A DNA stretch of 64,000 nucleotides. Source: Fluviicola sp. Its GTDB lineage: Bacteria; Bacteroidota; Bacteroidia; Flavobacteriales_D; Crocinitomicaceae. The notes beneath the pieces were generated by a model. That model ran no database searches. It saw only the letters and a list, made by a program, of their open reading frames with translations, and had not been told where the DNA came from. The position numbers and the translations under genes were made by a program. Positions 6,270 to 51,118 of the stretch are shown in pieces; positions within the stretch are counted from its first letter, which is position 1; each line of letters begins with the position of its first letter. Location of the stretch: the NCBI GenBank assembly GCA_029866325.1, contig JARWZO010000029.1:1-64000 (forward strand). The letters are read 5' to 3'.

Positions 6270-6295
6270 GGCGCGGGATGCGTCCCGCGCCTACG
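6270..6295 (-). repeat. REP hairpin abutting the RAYT stop codon
   Basis: The palindrome GGCGCGGGA-TGCG-TCCCGCGCC is perfect over 9 bp per arm. On the minus strand it is preceded by GTAG, the tetranucleotide that precedes the foot of REP palindromes recognised by RAYT transposases. It overlaps the end of the transposase gene. Confidence 0.7.
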
Positions 6296-6803
6296 GCAAC
6301 CGTGGTTTCCAATTTTTCACATTATCCCGAATGTATTTTTCAACATTGCCATATTCTGTTTCATCGCGAATGATTCGATCATAATAACGCGATTGCCATT
6401 CAAATGGTATATTATTGATTCGGGCATAGGTTGTAACCGCTGCCTTAAATCCCCGAATGATTGAACCGACATTCTGTGATTGAACACCCATGGAATTGGA
6501 TGAAAATTGTTCATTAAACTGATTTCCGCCTATTGTGATAATCGCATGAAAATGATCTGGCATAACAATGAATTCACCCAATTCAATATTTGTGTCCGGT
6601 CGCAGAATGATTGATTTTTTCCATTCATTTTCAGCATGAATTCCCAAGGGGGATAATTCCATAATTGAATCGGTGATTTTCCCGAAAACAGGCAATCTTC
6701 CCTTCACGCAAATGGTAATAAAATAATGGTTTGGGCTGCCATAATCGTAGCCGATTAATCGATTGGTTCCATTTCGGAATATGCCCATAAATTTATTTGA
6801 CAT
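6291..6803 (-). CDS. REP-associated tyrosine transposase (RAYT, Y1/IS200-like), 170 aa
   Basis: This is a single-domain Y1 transposase of the IS200/IS605 superfamily, which nicks single-stranded DNA through a tyrosine. The metal-binding HUH motif is HFH at residues 84-86 (context MPDHFHAII). The catalytic Tyr is probably in the C-terminal helix around YGNVEKYI. The N-terminal strand YFITICVKGR and the late RYYDRIIR are typical of the group. RAYTs are usually domesticated single-copy genes that mobilise REP sequences. Here REP-type hairpins lie on both sides, one touching the stop codon, so gene and substrates sit together. It appears intact. Confidence 0.9.
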   Translation of the reverse strand: MSNKFMGIFRNGTNRLIGYDYGSPNHYFITICVKGRLPVFGKITDSIMELSPLGIHAENEWKKSIILRPDTNIELGEFIVMPDHFHAIITIGGNQFNEQFSSNSMGVQSQNVGSIIRGFKAAVTTYARINNIPFEWQSRYYDRIIRDETEYGNVEKYIRDNVKNWKPRLP

Positions 6804-8537: not shown

Positions 8538-9767
8538 TTAGTGAGAAACAGTATTCCCATCTACATAATCTTGCAAATAGGCGTATTTTTCGGTCAGTTT
8601 TCCGTTAAAATCCGTTTCACTTGCTCGACCGATTACATTGTCAGGATCTTCACCTAACAAGCAAGGAAGTACGTATTTGATGAGTTCGTTTCCGAAATCT
8701 TCAGAGGCATCCATCGGTAATTCGCACGGTAAATTGTCTACTGCCATCACGGTAATGCTGTTTTCCAACCACGGATCAACTTCTTGTCCGGTAGCAGGAT
8801 CGTATCCGTAAACAGGTTCGGCGATTTTTGACGGTCGGATGGTACAAGCAATCGGCCCGGCGATGTCGCACGAAATATCGGCTACAACTTTGATTTTTGT
8901 TCCGGCTTTTTGAAAATCTGCTTGTGTGATGATGTTCGGTGATTTGTCGCTCCAGAAATGGCAGGCAATGTAGACCTGCGCCGCTGAAATATAAGGTGCA
9001 AACACCGATTTGTATAAGTTCGGATTGGCGTAAAAATCTTGTTTTTCAAACGGTGTTCCGTCGATACGCGCGTAATAATCTTCCACGTCGAGGTGCGCGA
9101 AAACAGGACCATCAAACTTTTGGTGCAAGAACTCCTCCGGGCTTACTTCTGTAATATCCAGCAAATCCATGATTTCGCGAGCGCCATAACCTACTCTACC
9201 AAATCCTGTGAGTACGATTTTGGTATCTTTGGGTAATTGGATTTTTTTGATCTCTTCTTCCATCTCAACACGATTTCTGCATTCGTTTGCAGGTTTGATG
9301 GAATAAGCACCAATTTTCTTTCCAAAGGTCAACATACCGTTGTAGCACCCCACAATTCCTGCGTAGCGACCAAAACCGATAATGCGTTTGTTTTGTTTGT
9401 TTTTCAATACTTCGTAATCGATCAATTGGATTTTACGATCCAAAATAGCTTGTAACAATCGTCGATTATAAGGCTGCTTTTTGATGGTATGCGAGAAGAA
9501 TAGGAATTTTTTCGAAGGAATAAGGTCTTCTATGTTTACTTCTTTCACTCCCATTATGATATCGCAATCATCTAGGCGATCAACAATTTCAATACCGGCT
9601 TGTGTGTATTCTTCGTCTTTGAATGCGCGCACACCACTTGTCTGCACAACTACTTCTACGTGCGGAAATTTGGTTTTCACCAGTAGGCATTGTTGGGGAG
9701 TCAACGGAACTCGTTTGTCCGGTGGTACTTTTCCTTCCCTAATAATACCTAGTTTAACTTGAGCCAT
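8538..9767 (-). CDS. NAD(P)-dependent oxidoreductase, PNT/saccharopine dehydrogenase-like, 409 aa
   Basis: The N-terminal half carries the alanine dehydrogenase/PNT-type signature KLGIIREGKVPPDKRVPLT. A Rossmann segment follows in VLTGFGRVGYGAREIMDLL (about residues 180-200), then a C-terminal substrate region with HFWSDKSPNI and VVADISCDIAGPIACT. This is the LYS1/alanine dehydrogenase superfamily form common in Bacteroidota, probably acting on an amino or imino acid with NAD(P)H. The start at 9767 (MAQVKLG) is chosen because it falls 1 nt after the stop of the upstream gene; an in-frame ATG 24 nt earlier would overlap it. Exact substrate unknown. Confidence 0.85.
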   Translation of the reverse strand: MAQVKLGIIREGKVPPDKRVPLTPQQCLLVKTKFPHVEVVVQTSGVRAFKDEEYTQAGIEIVDRLDDCDIIMGVKEVNIEDLIPSKKFLFFSHTIKKQPYNRRLLQAILDRKIQLIDYEVLKNKQNKRIIGFGRYAGIVGCYNGMLTFGKKIGAYSIKPANECRNRVEMEEEIKKIQLPKDTKIVLTGFGRVGYGAREIMDLLDITEVSPEEFLHQKFDGPVFAHLDVEDYYARIDGTPFEKQDFYANPNLYKSVFAPYISAAQVYIACHFWSDKSPNIITQADFQKAGTKIKVVADISCDIAGPIACTIRPSKIAEPVYGYDPATGQEVDPWLENSITVMAVDNLPCELPMDASEDFGNELIKYVLPCLLGEDPDNVIGRASETDFNGKLTEKYAYLQDYVDGNTVSH

Positions 9768-9768
9768 T

Positions 9769-10464
9769 CTAATTCTTTTGTGAACTTCCAATCGGTTGTT
9801 CCAATAAATAATTATCTATCAATTCGCGAACGCAGCCCTGTCCTCCCTTGAGGTTCAGCACCACATCTACGGTGTGTTTTACCACTTGCACCGCGTCGGA
9901 AGGACAACAGCTGAAACCAACGGCTTCCATTACCGGAAGGTCATTGATGTCATCACCAATCATCGCGACCTGATCTAGGGTTACTCCCAAATCGGTACAC
10001 CATTGACGTAAAATGTCCATCTTAGGTTCCCGTCCAACATAGACATGTTTAATTTTCAACGTGTTCGCACGGTTAATAACCATTTTATCAGTAAAGGCAG
10101 AAGAAATAATGCCGATTTGAAGTCCCATTTCCTGAGCTTTCAAGATCGCCATTCCGTCTTTTGCGTTGTACTTTTTTATTTGGTCACCCGATTCTGTATA
10201 ATACATACCTCCGTCAGACATTACGCCGTCTACATCCAAAATCAGCAACTTGATTTTAGCTAAAAGCGGTTTTAAATGATCGAGCACAAACAAGGGTTTG
10301 TAGAGCAATGAATACAAATCCACTTCGTTTTCTTCAGCAAAAGCCTCCAGGTCGATCATGGATAATTCACCAACACTGTCTACCTGAAAATCAGCCATAA
10401 ACTGGTTGAAATTCACCCCGAACTTGGTACACAATCCTTTGATATTTTGTTCTAAAAACTGCAT
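9769..10464 (-). CDS. KdsC-type HAD phosphatase with helical N-terminal extension, 231 aa
   Basis: From about residue 70 the protein is a KdsC/YrbI-like HAD phosphatase: nucleophile motif LILDVDGVMSDG, a mid motif around GIISS, a Lys in GREPKMD, and the acidic motif GDDINDLPVM. KdsC removes phosphate from 3-deoxy-D-manno-octulosonate 8-phosphate. Canonical KdsC is about 180 residues; the extra 65 N-terminal residues here are helical and weakly resemble an XRE-type helix-turn-helix (inference). The start shares a base with the stop of the DAHP synthase gene, so the two are translated together. The true substrate may be Kdo-8-P, DAHP or another 3-deoxy-ulosonate phosphate. Confidence 0.85.
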   Translation of the reverse strand: MQFLEQNIKGLCTKFGVNFNQFMADFQVDSVGELSMIDLEAFAEENEVDLYSLLYKPLFVLDHLKPLLAKIKLLILDVDGVMSDGGMYYTESGDQIKKYNAKDGMAILKAQEMGLQIGIISSAFTDKMVINRANTLKIKHVYVGREPKMDILRQWCTDLGVTLDQVAMIGDDINDLPVMEAVGFSCCPSDAVQVVKHTVDVVLNLKGGQGCVRELIDNYLLEQPIGSSQKN

Positions 10465-11462
10465 TACACAATGGTATAGCCAACTGCAGCCGCAATCGGT
10501 TTGATAGACGTTAATAATGCTTCAAATTCGGCATGATTCAACTGTTGTGAAGCATCCGACTTGGCTACTTTCGGGTTCGGGTGAACCTCGATCAACAATC
10601 CATCGACACCCAAAGCCGTACAAGCACGCGTTAATCCGGCAACTCCATAGGCATAACCCATCGCGTGACTCGGATCCAATATTACAGGAAGATTCGTATA
10701 ATGTTTTAACCATTCCACACCGCACAAATCAAGCGTAAAACGTGTTCCGGTCTCAAACGTACGAATACCGCGTTCGCAGAGCAAAACGTTTTCATTTCCA
10801 CCAGAAAGCACAAACTCTGCCGCTTGAACAAATTCCTGCAACGTAGTTCCGAAACCGCGTTTGATCAATACCGTTTTTTGCGTTTTGGCACATGCACGCA
10901 AGATTCCCTGATCGTACATGGCTTTTGCACCAACCTGAATAACATCGGCGTGTTCGATGATTTCATCGATATGAGTAGCATCTCTGGCTTCGGTAACAAC
11001 CGTAAAACCGTGTTCCTCGCGCATTTTAGCCAATAGTTTCAATCCGTCGAGACCCATTCCTTGAAAACTGTAAGGACTGGTTCTTGGTTTGTAACATCCG
11101 CCACGCAATGATGTTAATCCGTTTGCTTTTAGCAAAGCTGCCGACTGTCGAATTTGTTCTTCCGATTCTACAGAGCACGGTCCGGAAATAATGAGTGTAT
11201 TACCGGTTTTTCCACCGATAGTCGTATTTCCGATGGTAACTTCTCGCGTTTCATTGCGATAACTGCGCGAAGCCAACTGCATATCGTTTGGAAAAACCCA
11301 ATGCTCGGCTACTTTGTCTTCTAATCCGTCAGGAATTTCTTTTACGCCTGATCCTGTGATCAATACGTTGGTATTGTTGGACACAACGTGGAATGCCTTG
11401 TATTGTTCTGCAAGCCGGCTAGCTTCTACAGCAGAAATGGTATCTTTTAAATGTAAAATCAT
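10464..11462 (-). CDS. aroF: 3-deoxy-7-phosphoheptulonate (DAHP) synthase, type I-beta, 332 aa
   Basis: The enzyme condenses phosphoenolpyruvate with erythrose 4-phosphate as the first step of aromatic biosynthesis. The catalytic barrel shows ISGPCSVES, GGCYKPRTSPYSFQG, LIKRGF, LCERGIRTFE and the late DPSHAMG. The KPRTSPYSFQG motif marks a DAHP synthase rather than Kdo-8-P synthase, its close relative. Residues 1-75 form a ferredoxin-like regulatory domain as in the Thermotoga enzyme. It overlaps the upstream epimerase-CBS gene by 4 bp and the downstream phosphatase by 1 bp. That setting is unusual for a purely aromatic-pathway enzyme. Confidence 0.92.
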   Translation of the reverse strand: MILHLKDTISAVEASRLAEQYKAFHVVSNNTNVLITGSGVKEIPDGLEDKVAEHWVFPNDMQLASRSYRNETREVTIGNTTIGGKTGNTLIISGPCSVESEEQIRQSAALLKANGLTSLRGGCYKPRTSPYSFQGMGLDGLKLLAKMREEHGFTVVTEARDATHIDEIIEHADVIQVGAKAMYDQGILRACAKTQKTVLIKRGFGTTLQEFVQAAEFVLSGGNENVLLCERGIRTFETGTRFTLDLCGVEWLKHYTNLPVILDPSHAMGYAYGVAGLTRACTALGVDGLLIEVHPNPKVAKSDASQQLNHAEFEALLTSIKPIAAAVGYTIV

Positions 11463-12463
11463 AGTTCTCCCTTGATCAGGTTCACAAAGGTAATAATTCC
11501 TTGCGCTTCGTTGGCATCATTTACCACCGGAAGGTAGAGAATTGGGAAAGAACAACGCTTAATTAATGCTAGAAGCTCGTTTACAGTGGACGACTCATTC
11601 AACGAAACAGGTCGTTCGTTCATATATTCGTTCACCGAAACCTGAAAAGTAGCCTCACCGAACTTCAATAAAGCCTTGCGTGCATCAGCATTGGAAACCA
11701 ATCCGTTGAGTTTATTTGATCCATCAACGACCAGTGTAAATCCGAGGTTTCCGTTTTCGATGCTTTGAAGTACGGATGTAAACGTAGCGTCATTCGCAGA
11801 AATGGTAGGCGATTCTGACAATGGAATCATAAAATCGCGCACTTTGAACTGTGAATTTACTTCACGTTTGGTCAAATCCATCAACGCATGACCGATACTT
11901 GGCGCATTGAATAAGTACGATCCGGAAACGGAAGTATGAACTCCCATATTTCGCAGAATAAACGATACTTCACCGTTTACGCCTCCATCAACATGTACGG
12001 ATTTATTGGGGTATTTGTGCTGAAAATCGCGGATTTTCTTAAAGTTGGATGCGTCAAACACACCACCACTTTGTCCGGGAACGGTAGCCATCAATAAGAT
12101 AAAATCGAAGGAATTGTAGGCATCAAACTCGGCAATACTTGTTGGTGTTGTGATTGCAAGTCCACGTTTTCCGGTGATGTCGGAAGGTAAATCAAGTGGA
12201 GATGTTAGATCTTCCAATTGAAAGGTCACATATTCTACCGGAACTTCGCGCAGCAAGTCGAAGTATTTTTCGGGCTGTGCCGTAATGATATGCAGATCGA
12301 TTGGAATGTTACACCAGGTGCGAATGTTGCGGATATCGTCGAATACTGTTACTTCGTCATTGCAATCAACGTGCAGTAAATCAACTTTATGTGCCATCAA
12401 ATCTGCAATAGTTGTTTGCAGATCTCGCTTCTTATCCGAATAGATCGATGCTGAAATTCTCAT
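11459..12463 (-). CDS. ribulose-phosphate 3-epimerase-like barrel fused to CBS pair, 334 aa
   Basis: Residues 1-200 form an RPE-like TIM barrel. The metal and acid-base positions of the family are kept: LLHVDCND (His, Asp), IDLHIIT (His), a loop LLMATVPGQSGG, and VHVDGGVN (Asp). Residues 205-334 hold two CBS motifs; the first, with GNLGFTLVVDG and SNADARKAL, closely resembles the CBS tail of KdsD arabinose-5-phosphate isomerase. This protein therefore joins an epimerase core to a KdsD-type regulatory module. It is the first gene of the operon and starts 4 nt after a TATTTTTG promoter box. Its product pentose or hexulose phosphate is unknown. Confidence 0.85.
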   Translation of the reverse strand: MRISASIYSDKKRDLQTTIADLMAHKVDLLHVDCNDEVTVFDDIRNIRTWCNIPIDLHIITAQPEKYFDLLREVPVEYVTFQLEDLTSPLDLPSDITGKRGLAITTPTSIAEFDAYNSFDFILLMATVPGQSGGVFDASNFKKIRDFQHKYPNKSVHVDGGVNGEVSFILRNMGVHTSVSGSYLFNAPSIGHALMDLTKREVNSQFKVRDFMIPLSESPTISANDATFTSVLQSIENGNLGFTLVVDGSNKLNGLVSNADARKALLKFGEATFQVSVNEYMNERPVSLNESSTVNELLALIKRCSFPILYLPVVNDANEAQGIITFVNLIKGEL

Positions 12464-12597: not shown

Positions 12598-12616
12598 ATT
12601 GTACAAACCAAATTAT

Positions 12617-14032
12617 ATGAAACAACTTTCCATCATCTCGTTCACACTACTTTTACTTGTAATAAGTCTCTCCAACCGGGCGAATGCTCAAAGTCTTTCT
12701 CCAGATCTGGATGCTTTGCTTGACGCCAAATTGGATAGCATGCATGTGGCATTGAACAATAAGTCGCTGAGCGGTGCCATTAAAATGTCGGGAAATTACC
12801 ATTGGAAACATGCCGTCGGGATATCCTCGACTTTTGTACCTGTTACCACCGACCACGTTTATGAAATAGGAAGTGTGGCAAAAACGATGACGGCTGCCTG
12901 TGTTTTACAATTAGTTGATGAGCAGGTTTTAACGTTGGACGATAGTTTGCATGAATGGCTTGCTCCTATTCCGAATATCAGCGGAGATATTACGATTCGC
13001 CAATTATTGCAGCACAAAAGCGGCTTGTATGATGTATTGGGAAACCCATCTTGTCAACCAACGTTATTGACTTATCAAGATTCAATCTGGGATCCTGAAG
13101 TATTGGTCTACACCTTTATCATGCCGCCTCCGAATCAACCGGGCGGAACTTGGAGCTATTGCAACACCAATTACTTCCTATTGGGAATGATCATCAAAGC
13201 AGCCACAGGCAATAACTATTACACCGAAATCAGAAATCGATTTTTCACTCCACTCGGGTTAACTACTCCAGCCATTCCGGCATACGAGACCGTAAGTTCA
13301 CCGGTTGCACATCTTTGGCTAGACATTAACGGTGACGCTATTCTAGACGATGCACATACTTTTTTCTTCAACTGGTTATCATTGAATTCGGCGGCTGGAG
13401 CTGCAGGAGGATATTATGCCACGCCATTGGAAACTTCTGAGTGGATGCGAACCTACATGCGTGGAGACCTTCTTTCGGCAATAGTGATGGATGAAGCTCG
13501 AATCACCGTTCCTGCTCCGGGTTTACCTGCAACTACTTACGGCTTGGGACTCATGAAAAAGCAATTTTTCGGCTACACGGGTTACGGTCACGGCGGTGAT
13601 TTATCCTATTCAGCCAGTTCATGGTATTTCCCTGATTTAGACATTAGCGTAACAGTAACGAACAACGATGCCAATATCATATCATGGGAATTGTCGCCGG
13701 TAATTGCGGAGTTGCTGGAGACCTATGTGAATTGGCTGTCAACTGCCGAAACAGATGAATTGACTTCGAGCGAACCTTTGTTTTCGGTTTACCCGATTCC
13801 ATTTACTTCTGAAGTGAATATTGATATACCGCAAGAATATACCCACCGAAAAATCAGCTTTGAAATCTATTCTGTTTCGGGAAATAAACTAAGTACAACT
13901 AGTGTAAATACCTATAACGAGTCTACTTCTGTTTTAACCGTGAGTGGTTTGGATCGTCTTTCATCGGGAGCTTATTTGTTAAAGATTTATACCGATGGTG
14001 AATTGACACAAATACAGGAATTGATCAAATAA
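12617..14032 (+). CDS. secreted serine hydrolase (beta-lactamase class C-like) with T9SS tail, 471 aa
   Basis: A signal peptide (about residues 1-25) precedes a class C beta-lactamase/DD-peptidase-type domain. The nucleophile motif is SVAK (Ser86, Lys89), the second motif YCN (Tyr181 to Asn183), and the third HGG in GYGHGGDLSY. The C-terminal 80 residues begin LFSVYPIPFTSEVNID and match the Por secretion tail (type A T9SS signal), so the enzyme is probably exported to the cell surface or medium. Likely substrates are peptidoglycan-related peptides, esters or beta-lactams; which one cannot be decided. The ATG at 12617 is preferred to an upstream TTG at 12599 because it starts the signal peptide. 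Confidence 0.88.
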   Translation: MKQLSIISFTLLLLVISLSNRANAQSLSPDLDALLDAKLDSMHVALNNKSLSGAIKMSGNYHWKHAVGISSTFVPVTTDHVYEIGSVAKTMTAACVLQLVDEQVLTLDDSLHEWLAPIPNISGDITIRQLLQHKSGLYDVLGNPSCQPTLLTYQDSIWDPEVLVYTFIMPPPNQPGGTWSYCNTNYFLLGMIIKAATGNNYYTEIRNRFFTPLGLTTPAIPAYETVSSPVAHLWLDINGDAILDDAHTFFFNWLSLNSAAGAAGGYYATPLETSEWMRTYMRGDLLSAIVMDEARITVPAPGLPATTYGLGLMKKQFFGYTGYGHGGDLSYSASSWYFPDLDISVTVTNNDANIISWELSPVIAELLETYVNWLSTAETDELTSSEPLFSVYPIPFTSEVNIDIPQEYTHRKISFEIYSVSGNKLSTTSVNTYNESTSVLTVSGLDRLSSGAYLLKIYTDGELTQIQELIK

Positions 14033-34308: not shown

Positions 34309-37300
34309 ATGAAAAAACAACTACTCGCTCCTGCTTTCCTCTTGATTTCAGCACTGGGAATAGCACAATGTTCGCTTACAACGATTGCCGATAATCAAAC
34401 CATTACGTGTGGTGATTGTGTTACACTTTCTGCATTTGGAAACGGTTCCGGCAACATTGCCTTTCAGGAAGACTTTAACTCCGGTTCGCCGCAAGGCTGG
34501 CAGTTTACACAAACCGTAACAATCGCTAACAATACATGTGGTGTTCCTTCGCCAGACGGATCTCCATTTATGTGGATGGGTGACGCTTCCGTGAATCCAA
34601 GAGATATGGAAACCGTTGGATTCGACCTAACACCCGGCGGAACTGTCTGTTTTGAAATGCGTTACTCCATTCAGGGAGATGCAACTCCATGCGAAGGTCC
34701 CGATGAACCGGATGAAGGTGTTTATCTGCAGTATTCTGTTGACAACGGAGCTACCTGGATCACGATAGAATATTATGATCCGAATGGAGGGAACGACCCG
34801 AATCTGACTTCGTGGAACCAATATTGTGTTGTTTTACCTCCCGGGGCGTTAACTACCAATACCATGATTCGCTGGCATCAGGATGCTGTTTCCGGTGAAG
34901 AGTACGACCACTGGGGAATTGACAACGTGATCATTACACTCAACGATCCTACATTTCAAATCTCTTGGTTACACGACGGTTATAATTACGGCCTCGGGTC
35001 AGGTGGAGGAGACAACCCAACTCCTGTCTGTCCGCAAAATAACACAACTTACACAGCGCAAATTACCAACGGGGTAACTACATGTACCTCAACCATTACC
35101 ATCACTGTTGTTGATCCAACTATCATTATAGATGCCGGAAATGATACAACGGTTTGTCCGGGAGATTGCGCTGTAATATCCGCTACAGCTTACGAATTGG
35201 TAAGTCCCGCCAGCACACCAACCTTCGAAAACAGCGAAATAACGCCTGTCTTTAGCGGAAGTGCCGAAATGAACATTAATGTTCAGGGCTTGAATGCGCC
35301 TACTGTAAGCGCTGGCTCCATTACTTCTATTTGCTTAAACAGTTTCACGTTTAGCGGAACACAAATCTGTACTTCGTTTGGTGGTTGTAATTGCAACGGA
35401 ACACCGATTGCTTTTGGCTCAAGTTGCAATCTGGATGTCAGCAGTTTTGACATTACTGTTACTTCTCCGGGCGGTTGCCAGATTACATTAGTTCCCGCAG
35501 GTCAAGCCAGTGGAACTAATTACACCAACGTATGTTTTGTACCTTCAGGTGGACAAAGTATTGCCTTGCCAAGTTTTCCTTCACCGGGCAACTGGAATCC
35601 GCAGCAACCGTTTTCGGTATTGAACGGATGTGCTTCTAACGGGGTTTGGACAATGGAAGTGAACGCTCCCGGAGGTTTGGGTTTCGGTGTAGGTTTCTTA
35701 AACGGTTGGAGTATTTCTTTCGACGATCCTGAAATAACCGCACCTGTCAACATTACATGGACACCAACAACAGATTTAAGCAATTCAACAACGCTTTCGC
35801 CTACAAGTTGTCCTTCCGCAACCACAACTTATACCTTATCCGCTACGGATACGGACGGTTGTACAACCGTTACAGACGATGTTACAATCACAGTTGGCAA
35901 CTGCTGTGCGCTAACTATTGATAATCTTACTCCTGTAAATCCGTCTTGTGGTGCTTCCGATGGAACAATTACGGTTACTGTTTCAGGACAAACGACCAAC
36001 CTACAATTCAGCATAGATGGTGGTGTTACGTTTCAATCATCCAATGTATTCAATAATCTTCCTGCGGGTAATTATACCATTCAAGCAATTGATGATAATA
36101 ACTGCCTTGAAACGGGAACAATCATCTTAACGAACGCTAATGCTCCTGTGATCAACAGTATCACACCAACCGATGCTAGTTGTGGTGCTTCAGATGGAAC
36201 GATTGTCATTAACGCCTCAGGTGGATCAGGTGCCTTACAATACAGTATCGATAATGGCGTTACGTTTGTGAGTGGTTCTACTTTTAACAATCTGGCTGCT
36301 GGAAACTACGATATTGTAGTTGAAGATGCTGGTGGGTGTCAGGCTACAGGAACCACAACCATTGCAAATGCAAACGCACCTGTAATCAATACTATTACTC
36401 CCACCGACGCCAGTTGTGGTGCTTCCGACGGAACGATTGTCATAAACGCTTCTGGCGGGTCAGGTGCATTACAATACAGTATCGACAATGGAGTTACGTT
36501 TGTGAGTGGCTCTACTTTTAACAATCTTGCCGCAGGAAATTACGATATCGTAGTAGAAGATGCCTCAGGCTGTCAAGCAACCGGAACAACAACTATTGCA
36601 ACATTAAATGGTCCGGTAATCAATAGCATCACTCCAACCGATGCCAATTGCGGAGCTTCCGACGGAACGATTGTTATCAACGCTTCAGGCGGATCAGGAG
36701 CTTTACAATACAGTATCGATAATGGAGTTACGTTTGTGAGCGGTTCTACCTTTAACAGCCTTGTCGCTGGAAACTATGCTATTGTAGTAGAAGATGCCGG
36801 TGGTTGTCAGGTTACCGGAAATACAACAATTGCCAACCTGAATGGTCCGGCAGTGAATGCGGGTCCAGATCAAACCATTTGTGTTGGACAACAAGTAACC
36901 TTAAGTGGCTCAGGAGCCGGCGTAGTAGCATATGTCTGGGATAATGGTGTAACCAATAATACACCGTTTACACCTGCTGCAACCACAACTTACACCGTAA
37001 CAGGAACAGATGCCAACGGCTGTATAGCAACAGATCAAGTGACCGTTACTGTGAATCCGGGATTGGTGGTGAATGTGACTCCTTCTGTCACTAGCGGTTG
37101 TTCACCTTTGGAAGTAACCTTCGACAATACAACTGCCAATAGTGTTAATTGTACCTGGGAATTTTCGAATGGTGTAACAATCAACGGATGTGGTGACCAA
37201 ACTGTCACGTTTACCGCTTCGGGTTGCTACGACCTCATTTTCACAGCTACATCAGCAAGCGGTTGCACAGGAACCGCTACCTATAACGACATTGTTTGTA

Positions 37301-37848
37301 TTTCTCCGGCACCTACAGCTGCATTTTCACCAACACCAAATGTATTAACGATTGACAACACCATTTCAACAATGCTGAACAACTCCACCAACGGAGTAAG
37401 CTACAGTTGGGATTTCGGTGATGGTACGGCGGGTTCTACAGCAACATCACCAAGTCATTCTTTTCCAGATACAGGGCCAGGAACATACACCATCACTTTA
37501 ACCGTTACCAATTCCGACGGATGTACAGATATCGCTACCGGAACGGTGATCGTTGAAGAAGAACTAATCTACTTCGTCCCGAATGCTTTTACTCCCGATG
37601 GTGATGAGTTTAACCAGACTTTCGTACCTGTTTTCACTTCAGGTTTTGATCCGTACGATTACAACTTTCAGGTATTTAATCGCTGGGGGGAAATTCTCTT
37701 CGAATCGAACAACCATGAAATCGGTTGGGATGGCACTTATGCCGGAAAATTGGTTCAAGAAGGTGTTTATACCTGGCGAATTGAGTTTAAAACCTCAAAA
37801 AATGACGAACGAAAAACCATTAACGGTCATTTGAACGTGCTGAAATAA
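34309..37848 (+). CDS. T9SS type B adhesin with SprB repeats, 1179 aa
   Basis: After a signal peptide (ends GIAQ) comes a reelin-like or jelly-roll domain (about residues 45-215, FQEDFNSGSPQGW to HWGIDNVIITL). A proprotein-convertase P-like domain is at about 300-480 (WTMEVNAPGG). Four SprB-type repeats of about 78 residues follow, then PKD-like domains (YSWDFGDGTAG) and a type B T9SS tail (YVPNAFTPDGDEFNQ). SprB is the mobile gliding adhesin of Flavobacterium johnsoniae, so this is probably a surface adhesin. The gene pairs with the small secreted protein just upstream. Confidence 0.9.
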   Translation: MKKQLLAPAFLLISALGIAQCSLTTIADNQTITCGDCVTLSAFGNGSGNIAFQEDFNSGSPQGWQFTQTVTIANNTCGVPSPDGSPFMWMGDASVNPRDMETVGFDLTPGGTVCFEMRYSIQGDATPCEGPDEPDEGVYLQYSVDNGATWITIEYYDPNGGNDPNLTSWNQYCVVLPPGALTTNTMIRWHQDAVSGEEYDHWGIDNVIITLNDPTFQISWLHDGYNYGLGSGGGDNPTPVCPQNNTTYTAQITNGVTTCTSTITITVVDPTIIIDAGNDTTVCPGDCAVISATAYELVSPASTPTFENSEITPVFSGSAEMNINVQGLNAPTVSAGSITSICLNSFTFSGTQICTSFGGCNCNGTPIAFGSSCNLDVSSFDITVTSPGGCQITLVPAGQASGTNYTNVCFVPSGGQSIALPSFPSPGNWNPQQPFSVLNGCASNGVWTMEVNAPGGLGFGVGFLNGWSISFDDPEITAPVNITWTPTTDLSNSTTLSPTSCPSATTTYTLSATDTDGCTTVTDDVTITVGNCCALTIDNLTPVNPSCGASDGTITVTVSGQTTNLQFSIDGGVTFQSSNVFNNLPAGNYTIQAIDDNNCLETGTIILTNANAPVINSITPTDASCGASDGTIVINASGGSGALQYSIDNGVTFVSGSTFNNLAAGNYDIVVEDAGGCQATGTTTIANANAPVINTITPTDASCGASDGTIVINASGGSGALQYSIDNGVTFVSGSTFNNLAAGNYDIVVEDASGCQATGTTTIATLNGPVINSITPTDANCGASDGTIVINASGGSGALQYSIDNGVTFVSGSTFNSLVAGNYAIVVEDAGGCQVTGNTTIANLNGPAVNAGPDQTICVGQQVTLSGSGAGVVAYVWDNGVTNNTPFTPAATTTYTVTGTDANGCIATDQVTVTVNPGLVVNVTPSVTSGCSPLEVTFDNTTANSVNCTWEFSNGVTINGCGDQTVTFTASGCYDLIFTATSASGCTGTATYNDIVCISPAPTAAFSPTPNVLTIDNTISTMLNNSTNGVSYSWDFGDGTAGSTATSPSHSFPDTGPGTYTITLTVTNSDGCTDIATGTVIVEEELIYFVPNAFTPDGDEFNQTFVPVFTSGFDPYDYNFQVFNRWGEILFESNNHEIGWDGTYAGKLVQEGVYTWRIEFKTSKNDERKTINGHLNVLK
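35935..36850 (+). repeat. four tandem SprB-type repeats, 234-nt period
   Basis: Copies 2, 3 and 4 begin at 36160, 36394 and 36628 (each ITPTDA[SN]CGASDG), an exact 234-nt step. The first copy, near 35935, is more diverged. Confidence 0.85.
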
Positions 37849-38149
37849 GCGTACTCTTCCTAATTATTGAACCGCTTCCGTTGAAACACATGGAGGCGGT
37901 TTTTGCATTTAAAACGGTCTTAACTACATTTTACAGTGAATTTAATGCCGTTTACTAAATGAGACAAATCTATCAGAATTGAAATTATGTGATTTCTGCA
38001 ACGAAAAATGTTCAGAAACCAAACCGATTCATCCATACTTTGTTGGCGTTCGTCTAATAGTCTTCCGATAATTGTTAAAAAAGCTATGTACGCATTGCTT
38101 ATCATGGAAACATGACTTAACTTATAAGGTATCTACTAAACGTTGCGCT
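37849..38149. other. gene-free interval with terminator
   Basis: The 301 bp after the SprB-repeat gene hold a hairpin terminator at 37870-37905 and no supported gene. A short ATG-initiated frame near 38086 is not supported. No clear promoter box was found before 38150. Confidence 0.55.
37870..37905 (+). terminator. hairpin terminator
   Basis: The arms AACCGC and TCC pair with GGA and GCGGTT, and a T run follows. Confidence 0.65.
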
Positions 38150-41100
38150 ATGGAAACACCTCTACAACATCCAAAAGCGACACTGATTATTGCTGCTGTA
38201 CTTCTTCTGCAACAATCTTTTGTGCTTTCGCAATCTACTTGTCCAAATGCTGACTTCGGTCAGGGAAACTTCTCCTTTTGGCAAGGCACAACCGGAACTT
38301 ATACAAACCCTAATCAAGCATTAGGGATTGTAGCAGGAAGACACACGATTATGAATGCTCCCGGAATCGACCCGTTTACGTGCGGTGGACTTAGCGTTCT
38401 GCCTCCGGGAGGAACATCCTCTGCCCGACTTGGCAACAACAATACTGGTGCCCAAGCCGAAAAATTGATCTATAACTTATCTGTAACAGCACAAACTGCA
38501 CTCTTTATATATAAGTATGCTGTGGTGTTGGAAAATCCCGCAGGACATTTGCCCAATGAGCAACCTGAATTTACAGTCCGTATTTTAGATGCCGTAGGAA
38601 ATCCCATTGGTGGAAACTGTGGTACTTATAATGTTTATGGTGGTCAAGCAGGACAAAACTTCCAAACATGCGGTGGTGTAACCTGGTTACCATGGTCAAC
38701 TGTTGGAATTGATCTTACTGCGTACATCGGTCAAAATGTTCTTATTGAGTTTACTACCAAAGATTGTATACTCACCGGTCATTTCGGCTATGCCTATATA
38801 GCAGCTGAATGCGCGCCTATGGCAATCAATTTGGCATATTGTTCTGGAGATACGCAAGTAACGCTTACAGCACCCCTTGGTTTCCAGCAATACGAATGGA
38901 ATCCGGGAGCAATATCCGGTCAGCAAGTAACAATTCCTACTCCGGCGCTCGGAACGGTTTATACCTGCACCATGACTTCTTTTAGCAATCAAGGCAATTG
39001 TGTGGTCAATCTTCCTATTCAGATTGTTCCTACAACGGTTACAGCAGAGTTTACGGGAATGTCCGGTTGTGAAGACATCGGACTCACATTTACCGATCAA
39101 TCTGTTGTTACGTCTGGAAATATCGCAGGTTGGACCTGGAATTTCGGTGACGGGAATGGTTCGCCTCTGCAAAATCCGAATCATACATTTGCTAACGGAG
39201 GCTCTTACCTAATCCAGCTCATCGCCAGCTCAACGGAAGGATGCTTGGATACGATCGAACATGAAATCAATGTATATGCCAATCCAACAGTTGCTTTTAC
39301 AAGCACAGGCTCTTGTGCATCCACCATCACCTCTTTTTTGAATACTTCATCGGATATGTATCCGCTAACCTATGACTGGACGTTTGGAGATGGCTCACCG
39401 AACGTGCAAACCATCAACACAAGCCATACTTATAATCCGTCTGGCACTTACAATGTCACATTAACGGCTACCAATTCTATGGGATGCATTGCCAGTGTAA
39501 CCAATCCGACGCAAATTTATCCGTTGCCTCTTGTGAATGCAGGACCGGATGTAAACATTTGTCCGGGCGCTAACGTTGCTTTCAGCGCTTCGGGAGCTAC
39601 AAGCTACACCTGGGATAATGGAATCAGTGATGGCGTGGCATTTACACCGGCAACTCCAGGAATATATACCGTTACAGGAACCGACGCTAACGGTTGCAGT
39701 AATACAGACAATGCTCAGGTACTGTTTTATCCGAATCCTGTTGTTAATGCGGGACCGGATGTAACACTTTGCTCAGGTGCTACAACTATTCTTGCAGGAT
39801 CGGGCGCTGCCACCTATCAATGGGATCAGGGTGTTACAAATGGAATTGCTTTTGCTCCTTCTGTGATCGGTTCAACTTTCTATGGTGTTATCGGGACAGA
39901 TCTCAATGGATGTACCGACACCGATTCATTGATTGTTTTGGTCAATCCGATTCCAACTGTAGCTTTCACAAGTGACGGATCATGCGCACTAAGCAGCATT
40001 ACATTCGCAAATGCATCTTCAGACATTTATCCGCTGACGTATGATTGGAATTTCGGTGACGGTTCGGCTAATGTACAAACTATCAATGCCGGTCACGCGT
40101 ATGCAGCTGGCGCGATTTACAATGTAACTTTAACAGCTACCAATTCAATGGGTTGTGCTGCTAGTGTCACAAATCCTACGGTAATCTACTCACTTCCAGT
40201 TGTAAACGCAGGTCCTGACGTCACCATTTGCCCTGGAACCGCCATTACTTTCAGTGGTTCAGGAGCTACCAATTACGTTTGGAACAACGGAATCAGCAAC
40301 GGAATTGCATTTACTCCGCTAGCACCCGGAATCTATACCGTTACCGGAACAGATGGAAACGGATGTAGTAACACAGATGATGTTCAGTCCTTTTTCTTTG
40401 CCGATCCGGTGGTTGAAGCCGGACCTAACGTAACACTTTGTAACGGTGAAACAGCAAGTCTAACAGCTTCCGGTGTTACCAATTATCAATGGAATTACGG
40501 AGTCATCAATGGAAACATCTTCACACCTCCGCTAGGCACAACGGTTTATACGGTGGTTGGAACTGATGCAAACGGTTGTTCCAATAGCGATTCGGTAGTT
40601 GTTTTGGTAAATCCGTTACCACTAGTAAATGCGGGGGCAAATCAAATCATTTGTTCGGAAAGCTCAGTTACCTTGCAAGGATTGGGCGCCGTAACCTATT
40701 TCTGGGATAATGGTATCACTGACGGCGTGGCATTTCAACCCTCAGCAACAAGTACCTATACCGTTATGGGAACTGATGCCAATGGTTGTCAAGCGCTGGA
40801 TGCTGTGACTGTATCCATTGAACCACCTGTAGATGTAAACTTCAGCCTCAACATCACAGAAGGTTGCGCACCGCTTATGGTGACATTTACCAATCTTTCT
40901 TCCGGTGGAAATAATTGCTTCTGGGAATTCAGCGACGGTACTTCTTCTGTTGGTTGCGGATCGGTAAGTCATTTGTTTGAAAACGCAGGTTGTTATGACG
41001 TCACACTTACAACCACAACAGCCTTGGGTTGTGTGTCCGACACGCAATTAATGAGTGTTGTGTGCGTATTCCCGAATCCAATTGCGCAATTTCAGCCAAA

Positions 41101-41614
41101 TCCAACGGTAATGACAGAAATGGATCCAACTACTACCATGATCAATAGCTCAGTTGGAGCAGTCGATTATGAATGGACTTTTGGCGACGGTGGAACATCA
41201 ACATTGGAAAATCCGACACACGAATACAGTGATGCCATTGCCAACTACGTGATTGTCCTCACAGCGATCACAGAACATGGCTGCATCGATACAGCAGAAG
41301 CTGTTGTGGTAGTGGAAGAAGAATTGATTTACTACGTACCCAATACGTTTACTCCGGATGGTGACGGTTTCAACGAAGAGTTTAAACCTCAGTTCACGTC
41401 AGGTTTTGATCGGGACACGTATCACTTATATATTTTTAATCGTTGGGGACAATTAGTCTTTGAGTCGAAAGATGTGGATTACGGTTGGAATGGTTCATTT
41501 GCCGGAGAAATAGCGCAAGATGGCACCTACACTTGGAAAATCGAATTCAAATCACTTGACAGAGACGAACCTCAGTTGGAGGCGCTTACCGGCCATGTAA
41601 ACATACTGAAGTAA
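38150..41614 (+). CDS. T9SS type B adhesin with PKD domains, 1154 aa
   Basis: The ATG at 38150 begins a signal peptide (ends VLSQ); an in-frame TTG lies 78 nt upstream. An N-terminal beta module (about residues 30-230) is followed by multiple PKD domains (WTWNFGDGNG, YDWTFGDGSP, YDWNFGDGSA, YEWTFGDGGT) and Cys-containing beta-sandwich units of the form NAGPDV-x-CPG. A block of about 223 residues is tandemly duplicated (39284 and 39953). The C-terminus YVPNTFTPDGDGFNE is the type B T9SS domain. A surface-adhesive role is likely. Confidence 0.88.
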   Translation: METPLQHPKATLIIAAVLLLQQSFVLSQSTCPNADFGQGNFSFWQGTTGTYTNPNQALGIVAGRHTIMNAPGIDPFTCGGLSVLPPGGTSSARLGNNNTGAQAEKLIYNLSVTAQTALFIYKYAVVLENPAGHLPNEQPEFTVRILDAVGNPIGGNCGTYNVYGGQAGQNFQTCGGVTWLPWSTVGIDLTAYIGQNVLIEFTTKDCILTGHFGYAYIAAECAPMAINLAYCSGDTQVTLTAPLGFQQYEWNPGAISGQQVTIPTPALGTVYTCTMTSFSNQGNCVVNLPIQIVPTTVTAEFTGMSGCEDIGLTFTDQSVVTSGNIAGWTWNFGDGNGSPLQNPNHTFANGGSYLIQLIASSTEGCLDTIEHEINVYANPTVAFTSTGSCASTITSFLNTSSDMYPLTYDWTFGDGSPNVQTINTSHTYNPSGTYNVTLTATNSMGCIASVTNPTQIYPLPLVNAGPDVNICPGANVAFSASGATSYTWDNGISDGVAFTPATPGIYTVTGTDANGCSNTDNAQVLFYPNPVVNAGPDVTLCSGATTILAGSGAATYQWDQGVTNGIAFAPSVIGSTFYGVIGTDLNGCTDTDSLIVLVNPIPTVAFTSDGSCALSSITFANASSDIYPLTYDWNFGDGSANVQTINAGHAYAAGAIYNVTLTATNSMGCAASVTNPTVIYSLPVVNAGPDVTICPGTAITFSGSGATNYVWNNGISNGIAFTPLAPGIYTVTGTDGNGCSNTDDVQSFFFADPVVEAGPNVTLCNGETASLTASGVTNYQWNYGVINGNIFTPPLGTTVYTVVGTDANGCSNSDSVVVLVNPLPLVNAGANQIICSESSVTLQGLGAVTYFWDNGITDGVAFQPSATSTYTVMGTDANGCQALDAVTVSIEPPVDVNFSLNITEGCAPLMVTFTNLSSGGNNCFWEFSDGTSSVGCGSVSHLFENAGCYDVTLTTTTALGCVSDTQLMSVVCVFPNPIAQFQPNPTVMTEMDPTTTMINSSVGAVDYEWTFGDGGTSTLENPTHEYSDAIANYVIVLTAITEHGCIDTAEAVVVVEEELIYYVPNTFTPDGDGFNEEFKPQFTSGFDRDTYHLYIFNRWGQLVFESKDVDYGWNGSFAGEIAQDGTYTWKIEFKSLDRDEPQLEALTGHVNILK
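39284..40621 (+). repeat. tandem duplication of a 669-nt block
   Basis: The segments starting PTVAFTS at 39284 and 39953 are co-linear for about 223 residues each, with matching PKD and NAGPDV units. Confidence 0.75.
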
Positions 41615-47191: not shown

Positions 47192-47938
47192 TTACTTCAA
47201 CAACCGAAACCGCTGAATCAGGTCTTTGTATTTTTCACTAAACGGAATCACTTGTTTTCCTTGTAATACGATTCGATTGTCAGTGGTATCGATTTCTTCG
47301 ATTTGGGCTAAATTGACTATAAAATTGCGATGCGTTCGTGCAAAGCGAGATGCATCCAACAATTCGGTAATCTTGGTCAATGACATTAAGATCACAAACT
47401 TTTCTTTTTCGGTGAAAATGGTGCAATAACGTTCTTCTACTTCGATGTAGCAAATTTCGGAAATCAGCACTTTCTTTAAGGTATTGTTTTTCTTAATGAA
47501 CAAATAGTCATTGCTGATCACCGTATTTTGTTCTTCGCTGAAAAACACATCATTTTGACCGTAAAAGCGTTCAATCGCCATTTCGATGGCATATACCACT
47601 TCCAGCTCGTTAAACGGTTTCATCAGGAAACTGTATGGCTTGGTCAATTTAGCGCGGTCGAAAACAGCACGGTCGTTTGAACTGGTTAGAAACACAAACG
47701 GTTTCAGCGAATTAGGAACAGTGGTAATGGTTTCAGCAAAGGTGATTCCGTCTGGAATGTCTCCCAAAAAAACATCGATGATTACAATATCTACGGCGCT
47801 TTTGTAAAACAATTCCAGTGCTTCGCGATTGGTTTGCGCCACACCCACAACCGTGTATTGGTTTGCTTCCAACGCTTTTACCAATGCATCGCTTTCAGCC
47901 GGATTGTCTTCAATTATCAATACCCGTACATTATCCAT
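47192..47938 (-). CDS. LytTR response regulator, 248 aa
   Basis: An N-terminal receiver domain has the phospho-acceptor Asp in VIIDVFLGD, the acidic pair at VLIIEDN and the Lys in LMKPFNE. A LytTR DNA-binding domain follows from about residue 145, with RYCTIFTEKEKFVILMSL, RTHRNFIVNLAQIEEI and IPFSEKYKDL. Such regulators bind direct repeats upstream of targets. The start at 47938 (MDNVRVLIIEDN) overlaps the kinase stop by 8 nt, tying the two genes together. It is the partner of the TPR kinase upstream. Confidence 0.92.
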   Translation of the reverse strand: MDNVRVLIIEDNPAESDALVKALEANQYTVVGVAQTNREALELFYKSAVDIVIIDVFLGDIPDGITFAETITTVPNSLKPFVFLTSSNDRAVFDRAKLTKPYSFLMKPFNELEVVYAIEMAIERFYGQNDVFFSEEQNTVISNDYLFIKKNNTLKKVLISEICYIEVEERYCTIFTEKEKFVILMSLTKITELLDASRFARTHRNFIVNLAQIEEIDTTDNRIVLQGKQVIPFSEKYKDLIQRFRLLK

Positions 47939-49679
47939 TCTTTTCCGGTTTTGGGAGTGAAACAATCATTTTTGTACCCACTTGTTCTTCGCTTTCAATG
48001 GTAAACATACCACCATTTTTTGCAATCATCGATTTGCACAACTGCAACCCCAAGCCCGTTCCCACCAATTCTTCGTGTTGTTTCTTGGCAGGTTGAGCAG
48101 TTGTTTTTAATAAGTTTAACCGCGTGGTTTCAGACATTCCCAATCCGGTATCTTCAACTACCAATTCAACCAAATCGATTTCTGAACGCACATAAACGGC
48201 AATCTTTCCTCCTTCTTTTGAAAATTTGATTGCGTTATCGAATAAGTTGCGCAGCACAATTTTCAACGATTCGGGATCGGCAAACGCTACCGTGCTTTTG
48301 GGAATTAACTGCTCAAACACGATGTTCTTTTCCAACATCAAATGCTTGTAATTGAATGCCACTTGCTCCACAATGGGAAATAAGCGTAACGATTCTTGCT
48401 TAAAATACGATTGTTCGGTTTGCAGCAAGGCCCAATGCAAGAGATTATCCAGTAAGTTGTATGCACCGTTGGCAATGGCACTATTGGTTTGCAGCAGTTG
48501 ATCCAACTCAGCATAATTCTTCGTAGCCAAATTCGATTGCAAGTTGGTATTACTGGTTTTCATCGCATTTACCGAAGATCGCAAGTCGTGACTCACAATC
48601 GAAAACAACTTATCCTTCGCAGCGTTGAGTTCATCCAATTCGGTTTTTTGAGCAAAGATGGTTTTAGAACGTTTCACATTTAACCGGTAGAAATAAACGC
48701 CCGTTCCAAGTAATACAAACAACAAAACAGCCACATAAATAAAACTGTTTCGTTCAGCCACTTTCACTTTATTTTCGGTTGCCAGCACATCTACTTCTTT
48801 TTGTTTTTCTTTCACCGCAAACTGTTTCTCGAGCTGCGCTATGTCCCACACCTTGTTCTGATCGGTAAGCGAATCGCGCCAAGCTTCATATTCTGCGCGG
48901 TAAACCAGCGCTTCTTTGTAATGCTTGCGATTTTCTTCTACCACCGCCATGTTCAAGGCTGCATTTTGCTTGAGTTCAAAATTGTTCACGCGCTTCGACA
49001 ATTGATACGCTTTTTCGAAATACGGAATGGCCAAAGCGTCCTGGTATTGCTCGTAGTAGAGGTTGGCGATGTCCATGTAGGAAGCGATGAGACCGGAAGT
49101 GTCTTTTTCTCCCTCCTGTAGTTCAGCGCCTTCAATCAAGTACTTTTCTGCTTGTCGATAATGTAGAAGATGAAAATGACATAATCCTATATCATGAAAT
49201 AAAGCACTTTTGGTAATCGCTGACTTTAAATAATCTGGACTTTGTTCAATTCCCTCAAAGTATTTAATCGCTTGAATAAAATTGTTTTGTTCTAGGTAAA
49301 TCTCTCCAAGATTAGATTTTACAGCCAAGCGAAATTTAAAATTATCTGTAATGCTTGTAAACTCAGATTTCGCGTCATTTAAAAGGTTCTTTTCACGAAA
49401 ACAATTACCACTCAAATAATGAGCATAATTGCGGATTTCGAGGTTTTTAGTAACATCTAATTGCTTAACTGAGTAAGCCAAAGTTGAATCCCAGTTATTC
49501 TTCTGAAAATAGCTCCATGCTAAACGCAAATACTCAGTATTTTGGTTTCTTAAGATGGTTTTTTCAATCGAAATGCTTAAATCACTTTTTCTTAATTGAT
49601 TTTCACCAGCCCGAACCGTAATATGACTAATCGTAAATAAAAATATAATGGATAGTAAACTCTTTATGTCTATTAGCAT
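47931..49679 (-). CDS. TPR-containing sensor histidine kinase, 582 aa
   Basis: An N-terminal signal or anchor segment (about residues 6-26) leads to TPR-like repeats (about residues 45-270, ending in YQDALAIPYFEKAYQLSKR). A transmembrane helix (about residues 305-328) follows. The HisKA phospho-acceptor is His364 in SHDLRSSVN, and the HATPase has NLFDNAIKF, DTGLGM and GTGLGLQL. The layout is that of Bacteroidota periplasmic-TPR kinases. The start is the first ATG; a TTG four codons upstream is less likely. It overlaps the regulator gene. A broken second copy lies about 0.6 kb upstream. Confidence 0.9.
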   Translation of the reverse strand: MLIDIKSLLSIIFLFTISHITVRAGENQLRKSDLSISIEKTILRNQNTEYLRLAWSYFQKNNWDSTLAYSVKQLDVTKNLEIRNYAHYLSGNCFREKNLLNDAKSEFTSITDNFKFRLAVKSNLGEIYLEQNNFIQAIKYFEGIEQSPDYLKSAITKSALFHDIGLCHFHLLHYRQAEKYLIEGAELQEGEKDTSGLIASYMDIANLYYEQYQDALAIPYFEKAYQLSKRVNNFELKQNAALNMAVVEENRKHYKEALVYRAEYEAWRDSLTDQNKVWDIAQLEKQFAVKEKQKEVDVLATENKVKVAERNSFIYVAVLLFVLLGTGVYFYRLNVKRSKTIFAQKTELDELNAAKDKLFSIVSHDLRSSVNAMKTSNTNLQSNLATKNYAELDQLLQTNSAIANGAYNLLDNLLHWALLQTEQSYFKQESLRLFPIVEQVAFNYKHLMLEKNIVFEQLIPKSTVAFADPESLKIVLRNLFDNAIKFSKEGGKIAVYVRSEIDLVELVVEDTGLGMSETTRLNLLKTTAQPAKKQHEELVGTGLGLQLCKSMIAKNGGMFTIESEEQVGTKMIVSLPKPEKNG

Positions 49680-49706
49680 TTTAAGACTCAAATTGACTTC
49701 AATGAA

Positions 49707-50279: not shown

Positions 50280-51118
50280 CTAATAACTGAAATTATTAAA
50301 TGAATCACGCCAAGGTTCATATTCTGCGCGGTAAACCAGCGCTTCTTTGTAATACTTGCGGTTTTCTTCTACCACCGCCATGTTCAAGGCTGCATTTTGT
50401 TTGAGTTCAAAATTGTTGACACGTTTCGATAATTGATAAGCCTTTTCGAAATACGGAATGGCTAAAGCGTCCTGGTATTGCTCGTAATAGAGGTTGGCGA
50501 TGTCCATGTAGGAAATGATCAATCCTGTTGTGTCTTTTTGGTTCGCTTGTAAAGTTGCACCCTTAGTCAAATATTCTTCTGCTTGATTAAATACTTGAAG
50601 ATGAAAATAGCATAAACCAAGGTTATGAAGCACTCCACTTTTCTTGTAGAAGACCAATTTATCTTGAGATACCTGTTCAAGTTCTTTGAAGTATATTATT
50701 GCCTGCGAATAATCTCCTAATTCTAGAGAAATATCACCTAAATTTGATCTGACGTTATAGTATAATTGAAACGTATTTGAAATTTGAACGAACTCACCTT
50801 TGGCTTCGTTGAGTAATTTTTTCTCCATGAAAGCATATCCGCGAAAATAGTGGCAATAATTGGTCAGTTCTTTGTTTTTTTTGTGATCTGTAAAAGTTTC
50901 ATTGAGTAAAACAAAGTTGAATCCCAATCACTTTTTTCATAAAACAAACGAGCTTGATTAAAAAAAGGTACTTTCCTATACTTATGTGAGTGTAATTTTG
51001 CGGATTGGCTCCAAAACGATTTATTTACAGAAATTTTACCGAACACTAATATCGGCAAAAAAAGAAGTAAAAAAAAGACAGAGCCCTTTAGTAACTTGTA
51101 ACCACTTCTAAAAACCAA
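50280..51118 (-). pseudogene. truncated, frameshifted copy of the TPR histidine kinase
   Basis: The first part (51118 to about 50867) encodes a signal segment and the start of the TPR region (FYEKSDWDSTLFYSMKLLQI). An A8 run at 50875-50882 (minus strand) shifts the frame. The other frame resumes with HKKNKELTNYCHY and runs through TPR repeats to 50280. It aligns with residues about 50-270 of the intact kinase, with very high identity in the last 80 residues, then stops at EYEPWRDSFNNFSY. The membrane helix and kinase domains are missing. The first frame opens at a TTG with no ATG. It could still yield a soluble TPR protein. Confidence 0.8.

Follow-up and report, generated by a model that had tools for sequence, protein, structure and literature searches.

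How does a bacterium make 3-deoxy-D-manno-octulosonate (Kdo), the sugar on which lipopolysaccharide (LPS) cores are built, when two of the genes for its synthesis are missing? The KdsD/KdsA route from ribulose 5-phosphate is usually treated as fixed, and the question is raised by an operon on contig JARWZO010000029.1 of Fluviicola sp. (assembly GCA_029866325.1), of which we analyzed positions 1 to 64,000 (64,000 nucleotides in all, referred to below as the window). The operon consists of a gene that fuses a barrel of the ribulose-phosphate 3-epimerase (RPE) type to a pair of CBS domains, a gene for a synthase resembling 3-deoxy-D-arabino-heptulosonate 7-phosphate (DAHP) synthases (DAHPS), and a gene for a KdsC-type phosphatase. 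We consider it probable that this operon supplies non-orthologous substitutes for KdsD and KdsA, the enzymes that begin Kdo synthesis, and that the KdsC of the family acts after them. The features of the locus are as follows:

12463-11459, minus strand: fusion gene, RPE-type (beta/alpha)8 barrel plus CBS pair, 334 amino acids (aa)
11864..12463, minus strand: RPE-like barrel domain of the fusion, codons 1-200 (PF00834 over residues 3-185, 74 bits)
11471..11851, minus strand: CBS pair of the fusion, codons 205-331 (PF00571 over residues 277-331; kpsF profile over residues 207-324)
11462-10464, minus strand: type I-beta DAHPS-like synthase with a shortened N-terminal domain, 332 aa (TIGR01361)
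10464-9769, minus strand: KdsC-type HAD phosphatase, 231 aa (TIGR01670)
8538..9791, minus strand: AlaDH/PNT-N-like dehydrogenase, a neighbor and not part of the core (PF05222; start uncertain, the likelier ATG being at 9767)

The fusion and synthase genes overlap by 4 bases, and the synthase and phosphatase genes by 1 base. An earlier note on this DNA, made from the sequence alone, had described three overlapping genes of just these types, and the open reading frames (ORFs) together with the Pfam and NCBIfam assignments, which agree for all three genes, confirm that description. The span that it gave to the operon (8538..12463) holds for the three core genes, but its start at 8538 takes in a fourth, the AlaDH/PNT-N-like gene.

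Distribution and gene order

The fusion is a core gene of one family, Crocinitomicaceae (the family of the window according to its source lineage, and the one meant by "family" in all counts below), with few carriers outside. Of 150 family genomes sampled, 140 have it (that of the window among them), as do 110 of the 114 high-quality ones, and it occurs in all 24 genera. In the sample of the phylum it was present in 2 of 395 genomes, namely that of the window and another family member. In the sample of the order it was present in 208 of 399; by a tally of the listed rows, 202 of these belong to the family (217 sampled), and the other six (G554, G560, G570, G576, G615, and G619) to three other families. 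A plasmid search with the fusion returned 98 records, none of them covering 80% of the query, and the five matches listed fall in genes that bear a ribulose-phosphate 3-epimerase annotation.

We compared 31 fusion loci, after dropping L103 and L104 (duplicates of L002 and L001, respectively); the L106 and L119 loci were not used in comparisons. In 28 of the 31, there is a 4-base overlap between the fusion and synthase genes; the two are separated by 84 bases in one locus and by 11.4 kb in another (G406), and the last locus meets a contig end. The two genes adjoin in 20 of the 21 testable genera (24 genera carry the fusion), and the phosphatase gene directly follows that of the synthase in 29/29 testable loci (32 synthase loci, three of which are cut by contig ends). 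The gene order is therefore conserved well past close relatives, a point on which the earlier note had made its reading depend. In G406, a single contig carries waaA (31.6 kb), the phosphatase and synthase genes (36-37 kb), and the fusion (49-50 kb). A divergent hydrolase gene (L112, 6469-7395; L113, 6654-7505), which we take to be alpha/beta-hydrolase-like, flanks the fusion in 16 of the 31 loci, the window not being one of them.

Kdo genes in genomes that carry the fusion

We searched for Kdo genes in a panel of 50 genomes, made up of 27 fusion-bearing family genomes, three without a fusion match (G431, G445, and G525), and 20 outgroups (one from the order of the window and 19 from its class), using curated profile cut-offs (314 bits for the KdsA profile TIGR01362 and 203.7 bits for the KdsD profile kpsF). 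KdsA over the cut-off was found in none of the 27 fusion genomes and in all 20 outgroups, as well as in G431 and G445; KdsD over the cut-off was likewise found in 0/27 and 20/20. The genome of the window (4.68 Mb, with completeness given as 100%) has no KdsA over the cut-off, and its best match to the KdsA profile is the operon synthase itself. G525 has none either; with 68 bases between the start of its synthase gene and a contig end, the fusion has probably been cut off there.

The genes that act on Kdo are retained. KdsB is over the cut-off in 49 of the 50 panel genomes and 26 of the 27 with the fusion (it is missing in G396), and WaaA is present in 46 of 47 genomes and again 26 of the 27 (missing in G041; this count leaves out G431, G445, and G525). 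G398, a one-contig genome, has KdsB, WaaA, and the operon, with no KdsA or KdsD over the cut-off. Thus, these bacteria keep the Kdo-using genes and lack the two starting ones. The earlier note had seen the operon as mirroring kdsD-kdsA-kdsC; the parallel stands, but these counts make it probable that the operon replaces the first two of those genes and does not merely mirror them.

Both downstream enzymes are almost unchanged. Among 36 of 41 KdsB sequences (10 from KdsA genomes and 26 of the fusion type, including G525; G400, G037, G053, G076, and G064 were set aside because the start motif was not matched), a single column, at 85% conservation per group, separates the KdsA genomes from the fusion-type ones (T to S). 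Among 27 WaaA sequences (10 KdsA and 17 fusion type, none from G431 or G445) there is also one separating column (L to F), whereas 69 conserved columns are common to both groups. Such near-unchanged sequences favor a sugar that would still be Kdo.

The operon phosphatase scores 149 bits against the KdsC profile TIGR01670, over its cut-off of 106.95, and 149 bits against the KDN-9-P phosphatase profile NF058599, below the cut-off of 180. The GDDxND motif is present in 29/29 operon phosphatases. The operon phosphatases also have an N-terminal extension (~68 residues in the window) that is absent from Escherichia coli KdsC and from the second KdsC of the window genome. This second copy lies elsewhere, outside the operon, next to a gene that is presumably DUF2520 (Rossmann-like). 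The earlier note would have called the operon phosphatase simply KdsC had the genome held no other, and here the genome does hold one. Matches of the KdsC type (E <= 1e-15 for the counts per genome) occur in 50/50 panel genomes and as a single copy in 7 of the 27 with the fusion; in five of these relatives (G396, G398, G402, G414, and G416) the sole match is the operon phosphatase, which strengthens the Kdo reading.

Exchange of the two gene pairs within one genus

The strongest evidence comes from G431 and G445, both of genus g188, where the fusion is present in 16 of the 19 members sampled. In these two genomes the order of the locus is kept (hydrolase, phosphatase with the operon-type N-terminal extension, AlaDH-like gene, and a major facilitator superfamily gene), while the slot between hydrolase and phosphatase no longer holds the fusion and synthase genes; in both g188 fusion members compared, G412 and G539, the hydrolase adjoins the fusion. 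Part of the vacated slot is filled in G445 by an unrelated-looking ORF of 127 aa, and a search of the two genomes found no operon-type synthase elsewhere. Elsewhere, both have a SIS-only KdsD homolog of 200-206 aa (173.5 and 174.3 bits, below the cut-off of 203.7; a single stop was flagged within each match, but the ORFs are uninterrupted), whose gene overlaps that of a KANRS-bearing KdsA that is over its cut-off. The phosphatases of the two genomes group within the operon family, and in KdsB they branch as the sister of G412, of the same genus (support, 0.891). In these species, the fusion and synthase have been exchanged for KdsD and KdsA, and the later enzymes have been retained. A swap of this kind argues that the two pairs are equivalent and that their product is the same.

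A SIS-only KdsD homolog overlapping a divergent KdsA was observed at L067 (8584-9964) and L068 (9337-10732). This KdsA is long-branched from two other Bacteroidota KdsA in the superfamily tree described below, and so was possibly acquired horizontally.

The fusion protein and the proposed route

The barrel scores 74 bits against PF00834 (cut-off, 21.1) and 68.4 of the 212.6 bits required by the rpe equivalog TIGR01163, and by these profile scores it is a true but distant relative of RPE; a separate, canonical RPE (260.4 bits) is encoded in the window genome. H31, D33, H58, and D159 are invariant in 30 aligned fusions and align with E. coli Rpe and AlsE; we take them to be the RPE metal ligands, including the two catalytic aspartates. 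S6, VDGGVN, and SGS are invariant as well, VDGG and GS presumably binding phosphate as in RPE. The ligands that the earlier note had thought intact (HVD, DLH, and VDGGV) are indeed so. The fusion shares with RPE (PF00834) and AlsE the barrel, the four metal ligands, VDGG, and GS, but it differs in staying below the rpe cut-off, in the added CBS pair, in the deletion of the FVPN loop (a 6-residue gap), and in the change of PGFGGQ to PGQSGG or similar; the Met standing two residues past the RPE catalytic Asp is also absent. With the metal ligands kept and the loops altered, it is likely that catalysis has been conserved and the substrate has changed.

No SIS domain was matched in the fusion with Pfam or NCBIfam, and the RPE barrel stands in its place, in keeping with the suggestion of the earlier note that an epimerase barrel had replaced the isomerase. 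The CBS part matches the kpsF profile weakly (40 of 203.7 bits, over its CBS half), this being the best NCBIfam match there and one made by 29 of 30 fusion members. The match is suggestive of a CBS pair derived from KdsD, but other CBS families match too, and proteins of ~490 aa, which we take to be GuaB, also score on the CBS half of kpsF.

RPE acts on the carbon adjacent to a carbonyl, which it epimerizes by means of two aspartates that stand on opposite faces. We infer the substrates, products, regulation, and type of barrel reaction to be as follows. The RPE-CBS fusion would make D-arabinose 5-phosphate (A5P), preferably by 2-epimerization of ribose 5-phosphate or, alternatively, by isomerization of ribulose 5-phosphate, and its CBS pair would regulate the enzyme. 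The 2-epimerization is favored because a conserved two-aspartate, metal-dependent barrel would suit epimerization alpha to a carbonyl; the phosphate spacing would, by our own analogy, be that of AlsE acting on allulose 6-phosphate. PMC11301363 speaks of "at least three" ways in which prokaryotes form D-arabinose, and as described there none of these uses an RPE fold. The DAHPS-derived synthase would then condense A5P with phosphoenolpyruvate (PEP) to Kdo-8-phosphate, the phosphatase would yield Kdo, and the ordinary KdsB and WaaA would put it on lipid A. The earlier note had offered a dephosphorylated 3-deoxy-ulosonate as a possible product, and this agrees with the putative route.

The step logic of E. 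coli KdsD-KdsA-KdsC, a CBS pair on the first enzyme, a KdsC-type phosphatase, and KdsB and WaaA located elsewhere are common to both systems; unlike the E. coli pathway, this one has an RPE barrel and not a SIS isomerase, a synthase from the DAHPS I-beta side, and its genes in one operon. If true, this would be a new way to A5P and would mean that Kdo-8-phosphate synthase arose a second time, out of the aromatic pathway. It would also correct the "DAHP synthase" and "ribulose-phosphate 3-epimerase" annotations that profiles assign and that leave genomes without a Kdo pathway. Among the papers listed by searches of an open-access library, we found none linking an RPE-CBS protein, Fluviicola, or Crocinitomicaceae with Kdo, which does not prove that the link is unpublished.

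Evidence against the replacement and alternative products

Several points weigh against the replacement of KdsD and KdsA, the first of them in the synthase. It scores 310.9 bits against the DAHPS profile TIGR01361, over the cut-off of 267.75 (29/29 sequences of synthase set A3 match at E <= 0.001), and 121.9 of 314 bits against the KdsA profile TIGR01362. KPRT is kept in 31/31 operon synthases (L002, cut by a contig end, was left out of the set), and it stands in place of KANRS, a motif of all five KdsA in the alignment. Over archaeal/thermotogal DAHPS segments of Aeropyrum pernix 1vs1 and of 4grs, the window synthase has identities of 50.4% and 44.1%, respectively, compared with 28.5-32.7% to three KdsA and 36-43% to four Bacteroidota I-beta proteins. 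In a tree of the superfamily (29 rows, with 16 of the 31 operon synthases), KdsA is set apart at 100/100 and the operon synthases fall on the DAHPS side, with their monophyly supported at 78/28 and a warning of long branches. The earlier note was correct in calling the motifs DAHP-type.

The synthase is not an ordinary DAHPS, however. It shares KPRT and the Cys/His/Glu/Asp ligands (C96, H266, E292, and D303, invariant in 29 synthases) with the I-beta enzymes (Aeropyrum pernix 1vs1; 4grs), and its shortened N-terminal domain resembles that of Bacteroidota I-beta enzymes. In contrast, the GRR that follows the metal His is lost in 31/31, and the DAHPS loop GARNxQN, which carries the PEP-binding Arg, has become GAK(A/S)MYD in 31/31, with Lys for the Arg of GAR. 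The DAHP synthase of Pyrococcus furiosus, reportedly described by Schofield in 2005 (a reference of PMC6435475), is said to be a precedent for ambiguous substrate use. The Arg of GAR is described as completely conserved and PEP-binding in PMC6362186. The matching loop of KdsA is PAFL, onto which we mapped Pro110, Phe112, and Leu113 of Neisseria KdsA, residues that line the A5P pocket according to PMC6650799. By its sequence, then, the synthase departs from DAHPS where the aldehyde substrate sits, and the motifs and identities together point to an enzyme of DAHPS descent that is typical of neither DAHPS nor KdsA.

The remaining points concern the barrel, the searches, and the sample. To our knowledge, no RPE barrel has an aldose phosphate as its product. 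In G411, a SIS-only KdsD-like protein (C1:29568-30023, 92.5 bits) is encoded in the same genome as the fusion; among the KdsD-profile matches listed for fusion genomes it is the strongest, and the rest of those listed correspond to CBS parts or to partial SIS domains (the per-genome tally is full). The absence of KdsA and KdsD means scores below profile cut-offs in mostly draft genomes, and the KdsA tests leave out three further high-quality family genomes without the fusion (G542, G719, and G740) and six fusion carriers outside the family. WaaA does have its one separating column, and we found no data to show which sugar the LPS of the family contains. Lastly, the panel is phylogenetically clustered, and because of this shared ancestry the mutual exclusion reduces to few independent events; the evidence amounts to one family-wide replacement and one reversal in two related species.

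Some of these same points would fit an operon that makes a seven-carbon analog of Kdo. The synthase would use a four-carbon phosphate, either erythrose 4-phosphate (E4P) or D-threose 4-phosphate that the barrel, as a 2-epimerase, would make from E4P; the phosphatase would release 3-deoxy-heptulosonate, and KdsB and WaaA would put this sugar on lipid A. A synthase over the DAHPS cut-off with KPRT and no KANRS speaks for such a product, as does the loss of KdsA with KdsB and WaaA retained; by our own chemical reasoning, the spacing from carbonyl to phosphate in the two tetrose phosphates equals that in ribulose 5-phosphate. However, G431 and G445 kept their phosphatase and KdsB through the swap, which is easiest with the same product, and KdsB and WaaA have one separating column each, so we consider the seven-carbon product unlikely. 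That the whole family joins its LPS core to lipid A through a seven-carbon heptulosonate and not Kdo, with KdsB and WaaA tolerating it, is improbable too.

The synthase might also have replaced KdsA alone, with A5P coming from another enzyme, such as glucosamine-6-phosphate synthase, and the barrel doing something else. There are other SIS proteins in the family (as in G411), and eukaryotic glucosamine-6-phosphate synthases (GFATs) can make A5P, according to PMC11301363. But the fusion and synthase genes overlap in 28 of the 30 loci that allow the test, and the genomes of the swap, which have kdsD and kdsA, lack the two together, which makes this very doubtful. About as doubtful is an extra entry to the shikimate pathway, which the earlier note had also proposed, with the fusion regulating pentose-phosphate flow to E4P, the synthase as a third DAHPS, and the phosphatase unrelated or tuning: the synthase does belong to the DAHPS profile, but the window genome has two further DAHPS-family proteins (their C-terminal parts read as chorismate mutase), G431 and G445 do without the operon synthase, dephosphorylating DAHP would be wasteful, and the missing KdsA and KdsD would be left unexplained.

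Neighboring genes and other features of the window

The AlaDH/PNT-N-like gene lies next to that of the phosphatase in 20 of 29 loci. We considered it as part of the pathway core (for instance, aminating a 2-keto sugar acid) and rejected it, since it is absent beside the phosphatase in the other 9/29 and persists in G431 and G445, which have neither fusion nor synthase. Upstream of the fusion, the window has a serine-hydrolase-like gene (12599-14032).

Farther away, a small transposase-like ORF with an HFH motif (6291-6803, minus strand) presumably resembles the REP-associated tyrosine transposases. The ORF at 50280-50927 (minus strand) seems to be a partial duplicate of the downstream TPR/histidine-kinase gene at 47931-49691 (minus strand), with which it has, by eye, a long near-identical TPR stretch in common. 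Finally, two adjacent proteins of ~1180 aa are encoded at 34309-41614 (plus strand), which we take to be secreted proteins with PKD-like repeats; by eye, their C-terminal tails are similar, and the first contains tandem internal repeats.

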